Part shown: piece after piece, positions 9,703-48,273 of the stretch | How positions within the stretch are numbered: the stretch's first letter is position 1 | How the letters are laid out: each line of letters begins with the position of its first letter | Source: Euzebya tangerina | GTDB lineage: Bacteria > Actinomycetota > Nitriliruptoria > Euzebyales > Euzebyaceae | Assembly: GCF_003074135.1 (NCBI RefSeq) | Contig: NZ_PPDK01000001.1 | Span: 2,542,001 to 2,606,000, forward strand | Direction: 5' to 3' | Length of the DNA: 64,000 bases | Made by a program: the position numbers and the translations under genes | The notes under the pieces: generated by a model | Database searches by the model: none | Seen by the model: only the letters and a program-made list of their open reading frames with translations | What the model was told of the DNA's origin: nothing

Positions 9703-9778
9703 GGGCGCGTAGCTCAGTGGGACGAGCGCTCCGCTCACACCGGAGAGGTCGCTGGTTCGATCCCAGCCGCGCCCACCA
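9703..9778 (+). tRNA. tRNA-Val (anticodon CAC), CCA encoded
   Basis: A full cloverleaf can be drawn. The acceptor stem 9703-9709 pairs with 9768-9774. The D arm is GCTC/GAGC. The anticodon stem CTCCG (9729-9733) pairs with CGGAG (9741-9745) around loop CTCACAC, with anticodon CAC at 9736-9738. The T arm is GCTGG-TTCGATC-CCAGC. The CCA end (9776-9778) is encoded. It reads GUG codons, which are common in this GC-rich genome. Confidence 0.95.
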
Positions 9779-16065: not shown

Positions 16066-16134
16066 CGGGGCATCCGAAGCGGCACCAACCGACCTGCAGT
16101 TCGCGGATTCGCTGGGCGTGGTTCTGGGCGTTCA
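15728..16134 (-). repeat. Tandem duplication unit, copy A (period 440 bp)
   Basis: This block aligns base for base with 16168-16575 at an offset of 440, apart from substitutions and a single-base deletion (five G become four at about 16067-16070). It contains lipoprotein copy A and a fossil of the 3' end of the large metallopeptidase gene. Confidence 0.85.
16059..16134 (-). pseudogene. Fossil 3' end of the metallopeptidase gene
   Basis: About 76 bases repeat the last codons of the gene at 16499-19459: NAQNH, then QRIR, LQVGWCRFGCP. A one-base deletion shifts the terminal codons. It has no upstream coding part, so it is a by-product of the tandem duplication that copied the adjacent lipoprotein gene. 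Confidence 0.8.
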
Positions 16135-16163
16135 GTGCGATGGTGCGTCAAGATCGGCTGGGG

Positions 16164-16505
16164 TCATTCGAAGGTGCTGCCGTCTTCGTTGATGGTCCAC
16201 GTGCGCTCCCCGCACGCCTCGTCCACATCCAGCACGGCGACGATCAGGTCGTCAGAATCGTAGGCCTCGAATCTGCAGGGCGAGACACCTGTCATTCCCG
16301 GGAAACGGGCGGAACTCCGAGCACGCATGAACCGAGGTTGCGCCGTCGGACTTTGCCCGATGCCCTGAACAACGAGATCTTCGGATGTTGAGTTGATGAC
16401 CCACAGGCCGTCGGCAGGACATGAGCTGAGGCCGAGGGTGAGTATGAGCAGGAGGCCTGGGAGTGCCGACCTTCGGGTCAGTCCCGATGCTCGGCCTGTC
16501 ACCAT
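16164..16505 (-). CDS. Small lipoprotein, duplicate copy B
   Basis: A 113-residue lipoprotein with the same signal peptide and GLSSC lipobox as copy A. The C-terminal half (CRFEAYDSDDLIVAVL, then EACGERTWTINEDG) is nearly identical, while the segment between residues 40 and 75 has diverged most. The ATG at 16503-16505 lies inside the stop region of the metallopeptidase gene (seven-base overlap), so the two are coupled. This arrangement marks copy B as the ancestral position. Its function is unknown; the coupling suggests a partner of the secreted protein. Confidence 0.78.
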   Translation of the reverse strand: MVTGRASGLTRRSALPGLLLILTLGLSSCPADGLWVINSTSEDLVVQGIGQSPTAQPRFMRARSSARFPGMTGVSPCRFEAYDSDDLIVAVLDVDEACGERTWTINEDGSTFE

Positions 16506-44840: not shown

Positions 44841-46631
44841 ATGGAACCCTTCGGCAGCATGCGAACTCACGGCGCCGGCACGTTGCGCAGCAGCAATGAC
44901 GGCGACGAGGTGCTCCTCGCGGGCTGGGTCGCCAAGCGACGGGACCACGGGGGTGTGGTCTTCCTCGACCTGCGGGACCGCAGCGGGGTGTGTCAGGTCG
45001 TCGCAGACCCGAGCGCAGGCGAGGCCCTGCAAGCAGCCCACGATGTGCGTACGGAGTACGTGGTTCGAGTCCGAGGTTCGGTACGGGTTCGACCCGACGG
45101 GCAGGCCAACGAGGCGTTGGCCAGCGGTGAGGTCGAGGTTGCGGCCTCCGCGCTCGAGGTCCTGAGCGTCGCGCAGACCGTTCCCTTCCCGATCGAGGAC
45201 GGGATCGAGACCGACGAGAGCGTCCGACTGACGCACCGCTATGTGGACCTGCGACGTCCTGCGCTGGCACACCGGATCCGGGTCCGGGCCCAGGTGACTT
45301 CCGTCATCCGCCGTGTCATGGAGGACCACGGGTTCCTGGACATCGAGACGCCGATACTGACGCGATCAACGCCGGAGGGGGCTCGTGACTTCCTCGTGCC
45401 CTCCCGCCTCCAGCCGCGGTCCTTCTACGCACTGCCGCAGTCACCGCAGATCTTCAAGCAGTTGCTGATGGTCGCTGGGTTTGAACGGTACTACCAGATC
45501 GCCCGTTGCTTCCGCGACGAGGACCTGCGGGCCGATCGGCAGCCCGAGTTCACCCAGCTCGACATCGAGGCGTCCTTCATCTCCTCCGACGACATCTACG
45601 CCGTGTGCGAGGAGATGATGGCCGCCGTGTGGGATGAGGTGCTCGACGCCCAACTCCCCACCCCCTTCCCCCGCATCTCCTACGACGAGGCGATGCGGCG
45701 CTTCGGCTCGGACAAGCCGGATCTGCGCTTCGGGATGGAACTGGTGGACCTGAACGAGGCGCTCGAGGGGACCGGTGTCGGCGTCTTCAAGGGTGTGCTG
45801 GACGCCGGCGGGTCCGTCGTTGCGCTCTGCGTCAGCGGCGGCGGGGACATGACCCGCAAGCAGTTCGATTCGTGGACGGACTTCGCCAAGCGGCGCGGCG
45901 CCAAGGGCTTGGCCTGGGGCGTCGTCGAGGACGACGGCAGCCTGCGCTCGCCCCTGGCCAAGTTCATGGAGGACGCTGAGGTCAAGCGCATCCTCTCCGC
46001 AGCCGAGGCCGACCCGGGCGATGCCATCTTCTTCGGTGCTGGCGAGACGACCTTCGCCAGAGAGCTGATGGGCGCCCTCCGGGTTGCGGTGGCCAGCGAA
46101 CGCGGGCTGCTGGACGACCTGCCGGAGGAGGACCGCTGGCGCTTCGTGTGGGTGACCGACTGGCCGATGTTCGAGTGGGACGGCGATGCCGACCGCTGGG
46201 ACGCCATGCACCACCCCTTCACCGCACCGGCCGAGCCCGGCTTCGCCGACGACCCGGGTGCGGCCAAGGCACTGGCTTACGATCTGGCCCTGAACGGGAC
46301 CGAGCTGGGCGGCGGGTCGATCAGGATCCACGACCGGGGGATGCAGGAAACCGTGTTCTCCCTGCTCGGCATCTCCGCCGAGGAGGCAGACGAGCGCTTC
46401 GGGTTCCTCCTGCGTGGTCTGTCCTACGGCGCACCGCCGCACGGGGGCATCGCCTTCGGCATCGACCGGATCGTGATGCTGCTCACCGGGGCTGCCTCCC
46501 TGCGAGACGTGATCCCGTTCCCGAAGACCCAGTCCGGAGGGGATCCCATGACCGATGCGCCGGCGCCGGTCGACACCCCGCAACTGAGCGAACTCGGACT
46601 GCGAATCCTGCCGCCACCGGTCAAGGGCTGA
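44841..46631 (+). CDS. aspS: Aspartyl-tRNA synthetase
   Basis: AspRS (596 residues) has the N-terminal OB anticodon-binding domain (VLLAGWVAKRRDHGG, FLDLRDRSG), class II motifs (LDIETPILTRSTPEGARDFLVPSR and the ARCFRDEDLRADRQPEFTQLD block), the inserted bacterial GAD domain and the C-terminal GLSYGAPPHGGIAFGIDR motif 3. Many actinobacteria also use it to make Asp-tRNA-Asn; that is not tested here. The ATG lies seven bases after TACGGT. A 7-bp hairpin follows the stop. Confidence 0.97.
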   Translation: MEPFGSMRTHGAGTLRSSNDGDEVLLAGWVAKRRDHGGVVFLDLRDRSGVCQVVADPSAGEALQAAHDVRTEYVVRVRGSVRVRPDGQANEALASGEVEVAASALEVLSVAQTVPFPIEDGIETDESVRLTHRYVDLRRPALAHRIRVRAQVTSVIRRVMEDHGFLDIETPILTRSTPEGARDFLVPSRLQPRSFYALPQSPQIFKQLLMVAGFERYYQIARCFRDEDLRADRQPEFTQLDIEASFISSDDIYAVCEEMMAAVWDEVLDAQLPTPFPRISYDEAMRRFGSDKPDLRFGMELVDLNEALEGTGVGVFKGVLDAGGSVVALCVSGGGDMTRKQFDSWTDFAKRRGAKGLAWGVVEDDGSLRSPLAKFMEDAEVKRILSAAEADPGDAIFFGAGETTFARELMGALRVAVASERGLLDDLPEEDRWRFVWVTDWPMFEWDGDADRWDAMHHPFTAPAEPGFADDPGAAKALAYDLALNGTELGGGSIRIHDRGMQETVFSLLGISAEEADERFGFLLRGLSYGAPPHGGIAFGIDRIVMLLTGAASLRDVIPFPKTQSGGDPMTDAPAPVDTPQLSELGLRILPPPVKG

Positions 46632-46657: not shown

Positions 46658-46753
46658 CGGTGAGGTGTCCACTGCGGGCGGTTACGTGGGCCGGCATGTC
46701 ACCTAAACGCCGAATCAGGCCGAAATCCCTGGCCAATCGGTGGTCTGGCGTGC

Positions 46754-46782
46754 TTGCACCGGCTCTACGGCCTACCTAGCCT
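46754..46782 (+). promoter_or_regulatory. Putative promoter of the CWB2 surface protein gene
   Basis: TTGCAC (46754-46759) and TAGCCT (46777-46782) are spaced by 17 bases. Transcription would begin near 46789, right at the start of the structured leader. An AT-rich GATAAT at 46923-46928 is a second candidate, which would give a very short leader. Confidence 0.4.
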
Positions 46783-46788
46783 CGTCCA

Positions 46789-46952
46789 TCAGGTCGGGAA
46801 GTTCGCAGTCGGCTACCCGTAAGGGTGCTGGCTTTGCGTACGTCCCTACTCCCGACCACCGCTCGCAGGACAACCACGTCCCTCGATCGGTCGGAACCGG
46901 GTCACACCCGGGTTCTAGTTCTGATAATCGAGGCTTAGGAGGCCTTCCACAC
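46789..46952 (+). promoter_or_regulatory. Structured 5' leader of the CWB2 surface protein mRNA
   Basis: The 321-base gap between aspS and the CWB2 gene holds no credible gene. It contains a nested structure: GGTCGGGA (46792-46799) with TCCCGACC (46850-46857), inside it CGCA/TGCG (46804-46807 with 46835-46838) and ACCC-GTAA-GGGT (46815-46826). Two further hairpins follow: GGAC/GTCC at 46868-46881, and GAACC-GGGT with ACCCGGGTTC at 46894-46915. A strong AGGAGG (46937-46942) ends the leader ten bases before the ATG. I match it to no known riboswitch class. Confidence 0.45.
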
Positions 46953-48200
46953 ATGACTGTCACCCACATTGGGCGCCGATTGGTGCTCGTCGGGTTGCTC
47001 GCGCTCGTCGCCTCGTTGCTGCCGTTCTCGGCCAGCCAAGCGCAGGACGACTCTGACGACTCCGGCGACACCGAGAACGTCTATCTCGACCTGGATCTGT
47101 CGGACACCAGCACGACGAGTGAGTCTGTCCAGACATCGATCCTGTTCTCGCAACTGCAGTTCCCCGACACGGACACGCCGGGCGACACGCTGGCTGATGA
47201 CGTGATCCTGGCGACCGACGCCGACGGTGCAGACGCACTGGCCGCTGGTTCCATCCAGGACAACGCACCGCTGCTGTACTTCAACCCCGACACGGGCGTC
47301 GAGACTGCGCACATCCAGGAGATCACCCGTCTGGGTGCTTCCCGGGTCATCATCGTCGGTGAGTCCGACGCGATCGACACCGCAACCGAGACCGCCATCA
47401 ATGGCCTTGGTCTGCTCACCGTCCGTCTGGGTGGCGACACCCGTATCGAGACGGCCAACGAGGTCGCTGACTTCCTGTACTGCCGGAACGACTCCAGCAG
47501 CTCCACTGAGGGCAACTGCGAGGACTCCCGCACCGACACCGGTTTCGTGGAGTCTGACGACACCGCGAACGACACTGCCATCCACCTCTCCCGTGCCTTC
47601 GGTACCGCCACCGACCCGTCTGCAGCCTTTGCTGACGCCGCCGGTCTGGGTGCCTGGGCCGCTCAGAGCGGTGTGGCCACCGTCCTGACCGACACCGCAC
47701 AGGTGCTCCCGAGCACCGCGGCGTTCTACATGGACACCACCAACGACTCCGTCACCCGGTCGGTCACCATCGGTGGTCCGGCTGCTGTATCTGACGCCGT
47801 CCTCGACACGCTCGAGGAGGAGTACGACCAGGACGTCGACACCCGCGTGAGCATGCCCGACATGGACAACCGTGCCGGTACTGCCATCGCAGTGAACGGC
47901 GCCCGTGGCCTCGACACCGGAAGTGACTCCCTGCTGGGTGTCGTCTTCGTCGAGGGGTACACCGGTGACTTCTTCATCGACGCGTACGCGCTCGCTGGCC
48001 TTGCTGGCGTGAACGACCACGCGGTTGTTCTGGTCAACGACGGGATGCTCCCGCCGGAGTCCCTGGCCTACGTTGAGGCCCTGGACTTCACCGGCCTGAA
48101 CATCTTCGCCACCCCGAACGTCTCTGAGGACGGCATCGCTGCCATCGAGGCAGCAACCGGCCAGACGCTCGACACGCTGACCTACAGCGACGCGCCGTAG
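46953..48200 (+). CDS. Secreted protein made of cell-wall-binding repeats 2 (CWB2), S-layer-like
   Basis: The 415-residue precursor has a signal peptide (cleavage near SASQAQ), an acidic linker and then only CWB2-type repeats. Marks of these include DDVILATDADGADALAAG, ITRLGASRVIIVGESDAI, LGGDTRIETANEVADF, AWAAQSGVATVLTD, SVTIGGPAAVSDAV, RAGTAIAVNGARG and a last unit with FFIDAYALAGLAG. There is no enzymatic domain. In Clostridioides difficile three CWB2 repeats bind a wall polysaccharide and hold the S-layer. A strong Shine-Dalgarno, a long structured leader and a powerful terminator suggest high, controlled expression. Confidence 0.85.
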   Translation: MTVTHIGRRLVLVGLLALVASLLPFSASQAQDDSDDSGDTENVYLDLDLSDTSTTSESVQTSILFSQLQFPDTDTPGDTLADDVILATDADGADALAAGSIQDNAPLLYFNPDTGVETAHIQEITRLGASRVIIVGESDAIDTATETAINGLGLLTVRLGGDTRIETANEVADFLYCRNDSSSSTEGNCEDSRTDTGFVESDDTANDTAIHLSRAFGTATDPSAAFADAAGLGAWAAQSGVATVLTDTAQVLPSTAAFYMDTTNDSVTRSVTIGGPAAVSDAVLDTLEEEYDQDVDTRVSMPDMDNRAGTAIAVNGARGLDTGSDSLLGVVFVEGYTGDFFIDAYALAGLAGVNDHAVVLVNDGMLPPESLAYVEALDFTGLNIFATPNVSEDGIAAIEAATGQTLDTLTYSDAP

Positions 48201-48238: not shown

Positions 48239-48273
48239 ACGATGACCCGGCCACCTGGTGGCCGGGTCATCGT
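48239..48273 (+). terminator. Very strong terminator after the CWB2 surface protein gene
   Basis: Perfect 17-base arms (ACGATGACCCGGCCACC and its exact inverse) flank a single T, so the hairpin closes with a small loop of central bases. It starts 38 bases after the stop and is followed by TTC. It is symmetric and would work in either direction. Confidence 0.88.

Follow-up and report, generated by a model that had tools for sequence, protein, structure and literature searches.

The DNA analysed here, a 64-kb window from genome G000 of the genus Euzebya, raises the question of what a long, folded untranslated leader does in front of a single gene for a secreted CWB2 cell-wall protein. The preceding gene, aspS, ends at 46631 and the CWB2 protein starts at the ATG at 46953, leaving a gap of 321 nt, compared with a median of 28 nt for the 39 co-directional gene pairs of a mechanical ORF set of the window. 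This is a crude check on gaps only, and it agrees with a preliminary description of the window, according to which most genes have almost no leader. The mechanical set itself gave the CWB2 gene an upstream GTG start and hence a gap of 108 nt; the longest gap in that set (433 nt, 16066-16498) lies upstream of a minus-strand gene. Indeed, the CWB2 reading frame stays open across the entire leader and promoter (46707-46952, with the GTG at 46740), so an automatic caller may place the start too early and thereby hide the leader. The extended frame from GTG 46740 was ruled out because it crosses the promoter, and because the three relatives from the genus used for comparison (G001, G002 and G003) have an equal Shine-Dalgarno (SD) sequence and start and share the signal peptide, which back the ATG at 46953. 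The gene and its downstream flank contain the following features:

46953 to 48200, forward strand: secreted CWB2 cell-wall protein, 415 aa, with signal peptide MTVTHIGRRLVLVGLLALVASLLPFSASQAQ and a PF04122 match of 63.5 bits in 2 stretches
48240 to 48272 (approximate), forward strand: strong hairpin just past the gene, inverted repeat GATGACCCGGCCACC/GGTGGCCGGGTCATC, read by sequence

The hairpin probably marks where a transcript of this one gene ends. The other end of this transcript would be set by a promoter within the gap:

46754 to 46782, forward strand: sigma-70-type promoter read from the letters, TTGCAC (46754-46759), 17-nt spacer, TAGCCT (46777-46782)

Judging from the position of this promoter, the RNA start is expected near 46788-46790, which would make the leader about 160-165 nt long up to the ATG. 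The 17-bp-spaced promoter and an RNA start at a nested stem had been proposed in the preliminary description; the coordinates were confirmed, and in 4/4 Euzebya leaders CTTGC and CTAGCCTC are invariant, as is the spacing of 17 nt. A simple promoter scan did not list the TTGCAC/TAGCCT pair because TAGCCT is far from TATAAT. The scan did list GATAAT at 46923 (with GTCACA 16 nt upstream), a start from which had been named as the case that would overturn the long leader. We consider this unlikely and rejected it as the main start, since the hexamer is without counterpart in the three relatives and the RNA would begin about at the SD, while the upstream promoter is invariant.

Downstream of the expected start the leader is predicted to fold into four elements:

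46792 to 46857, forward strand: 5'-proximal nested stem-loop, outer stem GGTCGGGA (46792-46799) with TCCCGACC (46850-46857)
46858 to 46891, forward strand: second hairpin of the leader, ACCG-UCG-GGAC, its internal loops 1x1 and 2x2, part of the MFE fold
46893 to 46916, forward strand: third leader hairpin, GGAACCGGG-UCACA-CCCGGGUUCU, with a weak terminator-like tail, part of the MFE fold
46930 to 46946, forward strand: hairpin GAGGCU...GGCCUU in the predicted fold, with the SD sequence AGGAGG (46937-46942) partly in the loop

The nested three-level stem, the two further hairpins and the AGGAGG after it are thus all present as originally described. The stretch 46788-46862 has an MFE of -35.0 kcal/mol and a z of -3.73, with 0/200 shuffles as good, and a z this low is not reached in any of 400 randomly chosen 75-nt stretches of the window. 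For the second and third hairpins together (46857-46922) z is -3.35, again with 0/200 shuffles as good; a terminator-like site (46897-46911) lies inside the third hairpin. The whole leader (MFE -69.9, z -3.13) is equalled by 1/200 shuffles, and its z is reached by 3 of 200 random 168-nt stretches of the window. Comparing the two backgrounds, the 5' stem is exceptional in the window and the whole leader less so, although it was the preliminary description that had singled out the 75-nt stretch in advance, a selection that inflates the significance of the fold somewhat.

Each of the four Euzebya genomes has one homologous leader, and in every case the gene behind it encodes a secreted CWB2 protein. 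A model of the promoter and 5' element sequences, built from these same four leaders, has one strong place per genus genome (E 1e-24 to 1e-25), so that no leader copies were seen on paralogous CWB2 genes; the other 63 of 67 genomes are without a strong match (best E 0.003). With an HMM built from the three relatives only, leaving the window out, the window leader comes out first among the matches in the 64 kb, at E 1.7e-7 when the promoter is included and 0.0015 when it is not. In wider collections we found one chance match among genome contigs (an archaeal record), none among viral contigs and, for the protein, none among plasmids. In G002 and G003 the leader occupies the same position, between aspS and the CWB2 gene, and the gene after the leader-bearing one is related to its counterpart in the window, Wzy_C (O-antigen ligase). 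The G001 leader shares both contig and strand with aspS and lies ~21 kb downstream of it, behind another CWB2 gene. This contig (C26; L080, L082), which carries both aspS and the leader-bearing gene, contains several CWB2 genes, suggesting local duplication of surface-protein genes. As for the genus assignment, G003 has a 571,580-base contig, and the 3,001-base stretch of it that was tested matches the Euzebya pacifica plasmid NZ_CP031166.1 without a difference.

From start to ATG the leaders measure ~164 nt in the window, 336 nt in G003, 336 nt in G002 and 271 nt in G001, and those of the three relatives each fold well for their composition (z about -2.9 to -3.0). The folds differ: G002 and G003 have an additional hairpin, and after the first element we found no similarity between the window leader and the relatives, so that the second and third hairpins are unmatched. 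Conservation of the specific three-level stem was not supported either. On the ungapped alignment with G001, 11/24 of its pairs survive (shuffled mean 11.7), and a joint fold of window and G001 is equalled by 491/1000 shuffles. In the leaders, which amount to about three independent sequences, promoter, SD hairpin and a block of 28 nt are kept in 4/4, but the stem pairing compared with G001 stands at shuffle level. This block lies within the 5' element:

46817 to 46844, forward strand: 28-nt block CCGTAAGGG...GCGTACGTC (CCGTAAsGG-N12-GTRCGTC), ungapped in 4/4 leaders

The block bears first on whether the leader is anything more than ordinary drift, that is, a long untranslated region, rich in GC, in which a few promoter and ribosome-binding letters are conserved and the folds have no role. 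Such a reading accommodates the unconserved stem, the 3' half unrelated to the relatives and the 3/200 random 168-nt stretches that fold equally well relative to shuffles. However, it sits poorly with a block that has been kept between the -10 hexamer and the SD while the leader diverged elsewhere, with the 0/400 random stretches that match the 5' element, and with leaders that have stayed 164-336 nt long in 4/4 genomes. We consider drift very improbable.

The pattern CCGTAASGGN{8,16}GTRCGTC occurs once per genome in 4/4 genus genomes, on the leader-bearing gene. Outside the genus it was found in 7/199 genomes, compared with 6/199 in each case for two kinds of reversed control taken jointly; inspection by eye revealed neither a promoter nor an SD hairpin beside any of these outside matches, one of which sits in a ribosomal-protein gene cluster. 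Window and G001 have the same distance from block to -10, and in G002/G003 it is about 16 nt longer. RNAalifold pairs CGUA with URCG (8 pairs, 2 of them doubly changed, from ~3 independent sequences), while the single-sequence folds of the block differ among the leaders. The same letters could be read as DNA: CGTA...TRCG is an inverted repeat of fixed 28-nt length in 4/4 leaders just downstream of the start, its half-sites are centred 21 bp apart, equal to two helical turns, and its position relative to the start proxy is +28 both in the window and in G001, as might be expected of an operator bound by a repressor or activator. At the strict pattern, however, the repeat occurs once per genome in the 4 genus genomes and not at several promoters, which would be unusual for a regulator with multiple targets; the site is displaced by 14 bp in G002/G003, and an operator would leave the fold excess and the SD hairpin unexplained. 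This makes a DNA operator rather improbable in our view, if less so than drift. Whatever its partner, the block probably adds a specific contact, be it with a protein or through a dedicated RNA fold; it exceeds the needs of a generic stabiliser and counts against a purely protective leader.

A second shared element is found in the relatives. G001, G002 and G003 have GCGCAGCCGAGGCGCGCCCC and CCGGTGCGCGGGTCGGGTGCG in common within otherwise drifted leaders, and these segments pair as a three-way junction:

L060 1496 to 1595, minus strand; L016 1303 to 1450; L017 1303 to 1450: three-way-junction element in the leaders of three relatives

A model of this junction, built from the same G001-G003 leaders, scores 75.9-171 bits at its three places, and the best other match in 67 genomes reaches 23.5 bits. 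The junction was not found in G000, where the plus strand of the window leader gives only 0.4 and 1.6 bits. The internal loops of the window's second hairpin (46858-46891) come in the order 1x1, 2x2, as do those in the junction's outer stem, possibly by chance. Among the 44 pairs of the junction 1 is doubly changed, and this pair is missing from G001, so the covariation is weak; the main support for the junction is that both stem arms are kept.

At the 3' end of the leader, CGAGGCT(c)TAGGAGGCCTT precedes the start in 4/4 leaders and forms the SD hairpin (-7.0 to -7.3 kcal/mol). By itself, the hairpin in the window has a z of -0.36, and its sequence is so nearly invariant that the pairing gives no covariation test. 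The pairing could also reduce translation. Attenuation through a leader peptide was rejected: the two start codons within the leader (GTG, TTG) have neither an SD-like site nor an evident counterpart in the relatives.

The preliminary description had stated that the leader matches no riboswitch it could name and had called for an Rfam search. In line with this, at gathering score Rfam 15 reports only a tRNA (9703-9775) in the window, and for 46740-46990 nothing appears up to E 10, c-di-GMP and c-di-AMP riboswitches included. Fourteen related loci gave no match, and neither did the loci with the three-way junction, apart from two chance-level matches in the L016 leader. Among the papers listed for Euzebya together with S-layers, CWB2, noncoding RNA or riboswitches, none is on this leader.

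These data can be read as an undescribed family of cis-acting riboregulators, in which the 28-nt block would be part of a sensor for a ligand or protein and would, through its folding, act on a terminator or the SD hairpin, with the three-way junction of the relatives as a second module. The equal distance from block to -10 in the window and G001, the two doubly changed pairs in the CGUA/URCG helix, the SD held within a hairpin in 4/4 leaders, and the junction with both arms kept in drifted leaders (75.9-171 against 23.5 bits) all speak for this. But there are only about three independent sequences, the junction is missing from the window leader and the rest of G000 and has scant covariation (1/44 pairs), no switch partner helix was seen in the leader, the window's own stem is unconserved in detail, and the family would have no relevant Rfam match and one gene per genome only. 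We regard a riboregulator as somewhat unlikely; a ligand riboswitch in particular is possible but unsupported. A slightly bolder form of this idea, to which we give a little less credence, is an RNA class restricted to the genus and dedicated to the main CWB2 protein. Its parts would be a sensor block close to the promoter (CCGUAAsGG...GURCGUC), a three-way junction that is optional and was lost or never gained in the window's species, and a hairpin presenting the SD. If true, such an RNA class would tune the synthesis of the surface coat to the state of the envelope.

The gene behind the leader offers a different clue. CWB2 proteins form the S-layer of C. difficile; to our knowledge, their role and expression in deep-branching actinobacteria such as Euzebya have hardly been studied. 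The 415-aa protein matches the high-molecular-weight S-layer subunit SlpH of C. difficile weakly (E 0.0018), and the CWB2 proteins behind the leader in the relatives are secreted, S-layer-like and larger, with 814 aa in G003 and 1005 aa in G001. In G002 a frameshift, either genuine or from assembly, divides the gene (L062 3031-5458) between two frames; the G003 frame is intact. In G000, 18 places match the 415-aa protein at E <=1e-10, itself included, so the leader singles out one CWB2 gene among many, and for this reason the likeliest gene for the main coat protein.

Codon use was compared on the same gene. Its codon log-ratio towards ribosomal genes is 0.025, compared with a maximum of 0.009 for the other 41 window genes and 0.003-0.087 for 16 ribosomal genes. 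GGT stands at 16/34 in the CWB2 gene vs 275/1710 in the other window genes (p 3e-5), and CGT at 6/13 vs 168/1426 (p 0.002); the values for 15 CWB2 paralogs are 277/1317 and 47/480, respectively, based on 15 of the 16 CWB2 frames of G000 (L086 was dropped as it has no acceptable start) with some starts uncertain. The GGT shift is shared in part by ribosomal genes (0.26), but that of CGT is not (15% vs 41%), which makes the codon argument a mixed one. With this mixed signal, the codon use suggests high expression.

Taken together, we favour a leader that boosts expression and protects the one-gene mRNA of an abundant CWB2-anchored surface protein, a reading we hold with evenly balanced confidence. 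By prediction, the gene has its own promoter and a long leader with a stable 5'-proximal stem. The vegetative-type promoter at 46754-46782 would produce a one-gene mRNA with a 163-165-nt leader, whose stable structure a few nucleotides from the 5' end may shield the message from 5'-end-dependent decay, while the SD hairpin would present the strong AGGAGG to ribosomes. Shielding and presentation together would lead to strong expression, as for S-layer genes elsewhere. The folds differ among the relatives and yet are all stable, so protection fits better than a ligand pocket. Between the two functions put forward in the preliminary description, riboregulation and mRNA stabilisation, the latter thus appears to fit better; a long folded leader for a probably abundant surface protein stands, with promoter, block and SD hairpin kept in 4/4 leaders, whereas the pairing of the stem does not share this conservation. 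For Euzebya-type bacteria the leader would be a natural part for strong expression, and it is also a small, testable candidate RNA element outside Rfam.

How does this leader compare with known systems? The c-di-GMP and c-di-AMP riboswitches are cis-acting leaders through which surface and cell-wall genes are controlled; unlike these, the Euzebya leader has no Rfam match, either at gathering score or up to an E of 10. In E. coli, ompA has a 5'-terminal stem-loop that stabilises its mRNA. The Euzebya leader likewise has a stable stem a few nucleotides from the RNA 5' end, but its sequence is unrelated and its stabilising effect would be a prediction; moreover, the decay enzymes of actinobacteria differ from those of the E. 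coli ompA setting. CwpV of C. difficile is a member of the CWB2 family. The cwpV leader, too, is a regulatory 5' leader, in front of a cell-wall protein of this family, but there control runs through a DNA inversion that forms a terminator, according to PMC8844915. A long leader need not stabilise, since in mycobacteria the long sigA leader shortened half-life (PMC7148126); S-layer mRNAs, on the other hand, tend towards raised stability (PMC8056022). The slpA leader of L. acidophilus, a stable-mRNA leader, is described as forming a large stem-loop with a possible protective effect on the mRNA (Boot et al. 1996, as cited in PMC6482533). It resembles the Euzebya leader in being long and untranslated, with a predicted large stem-loop and one dominant promoter before an S-layer-type gene; in contrast, the anchor is SLP-A there and CWB2 here, and mRNA stability, which is only a prediction in our case, is reported for slpA in the title of the cited paper. 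This is a likeness by description, where a relation in sequence is not expected. The Euzebya leader is thus restricted to its genus and outside the catalogued RNA families, and it belongs to a kind, the long structured leaders of surface-protein genes, that is already known.
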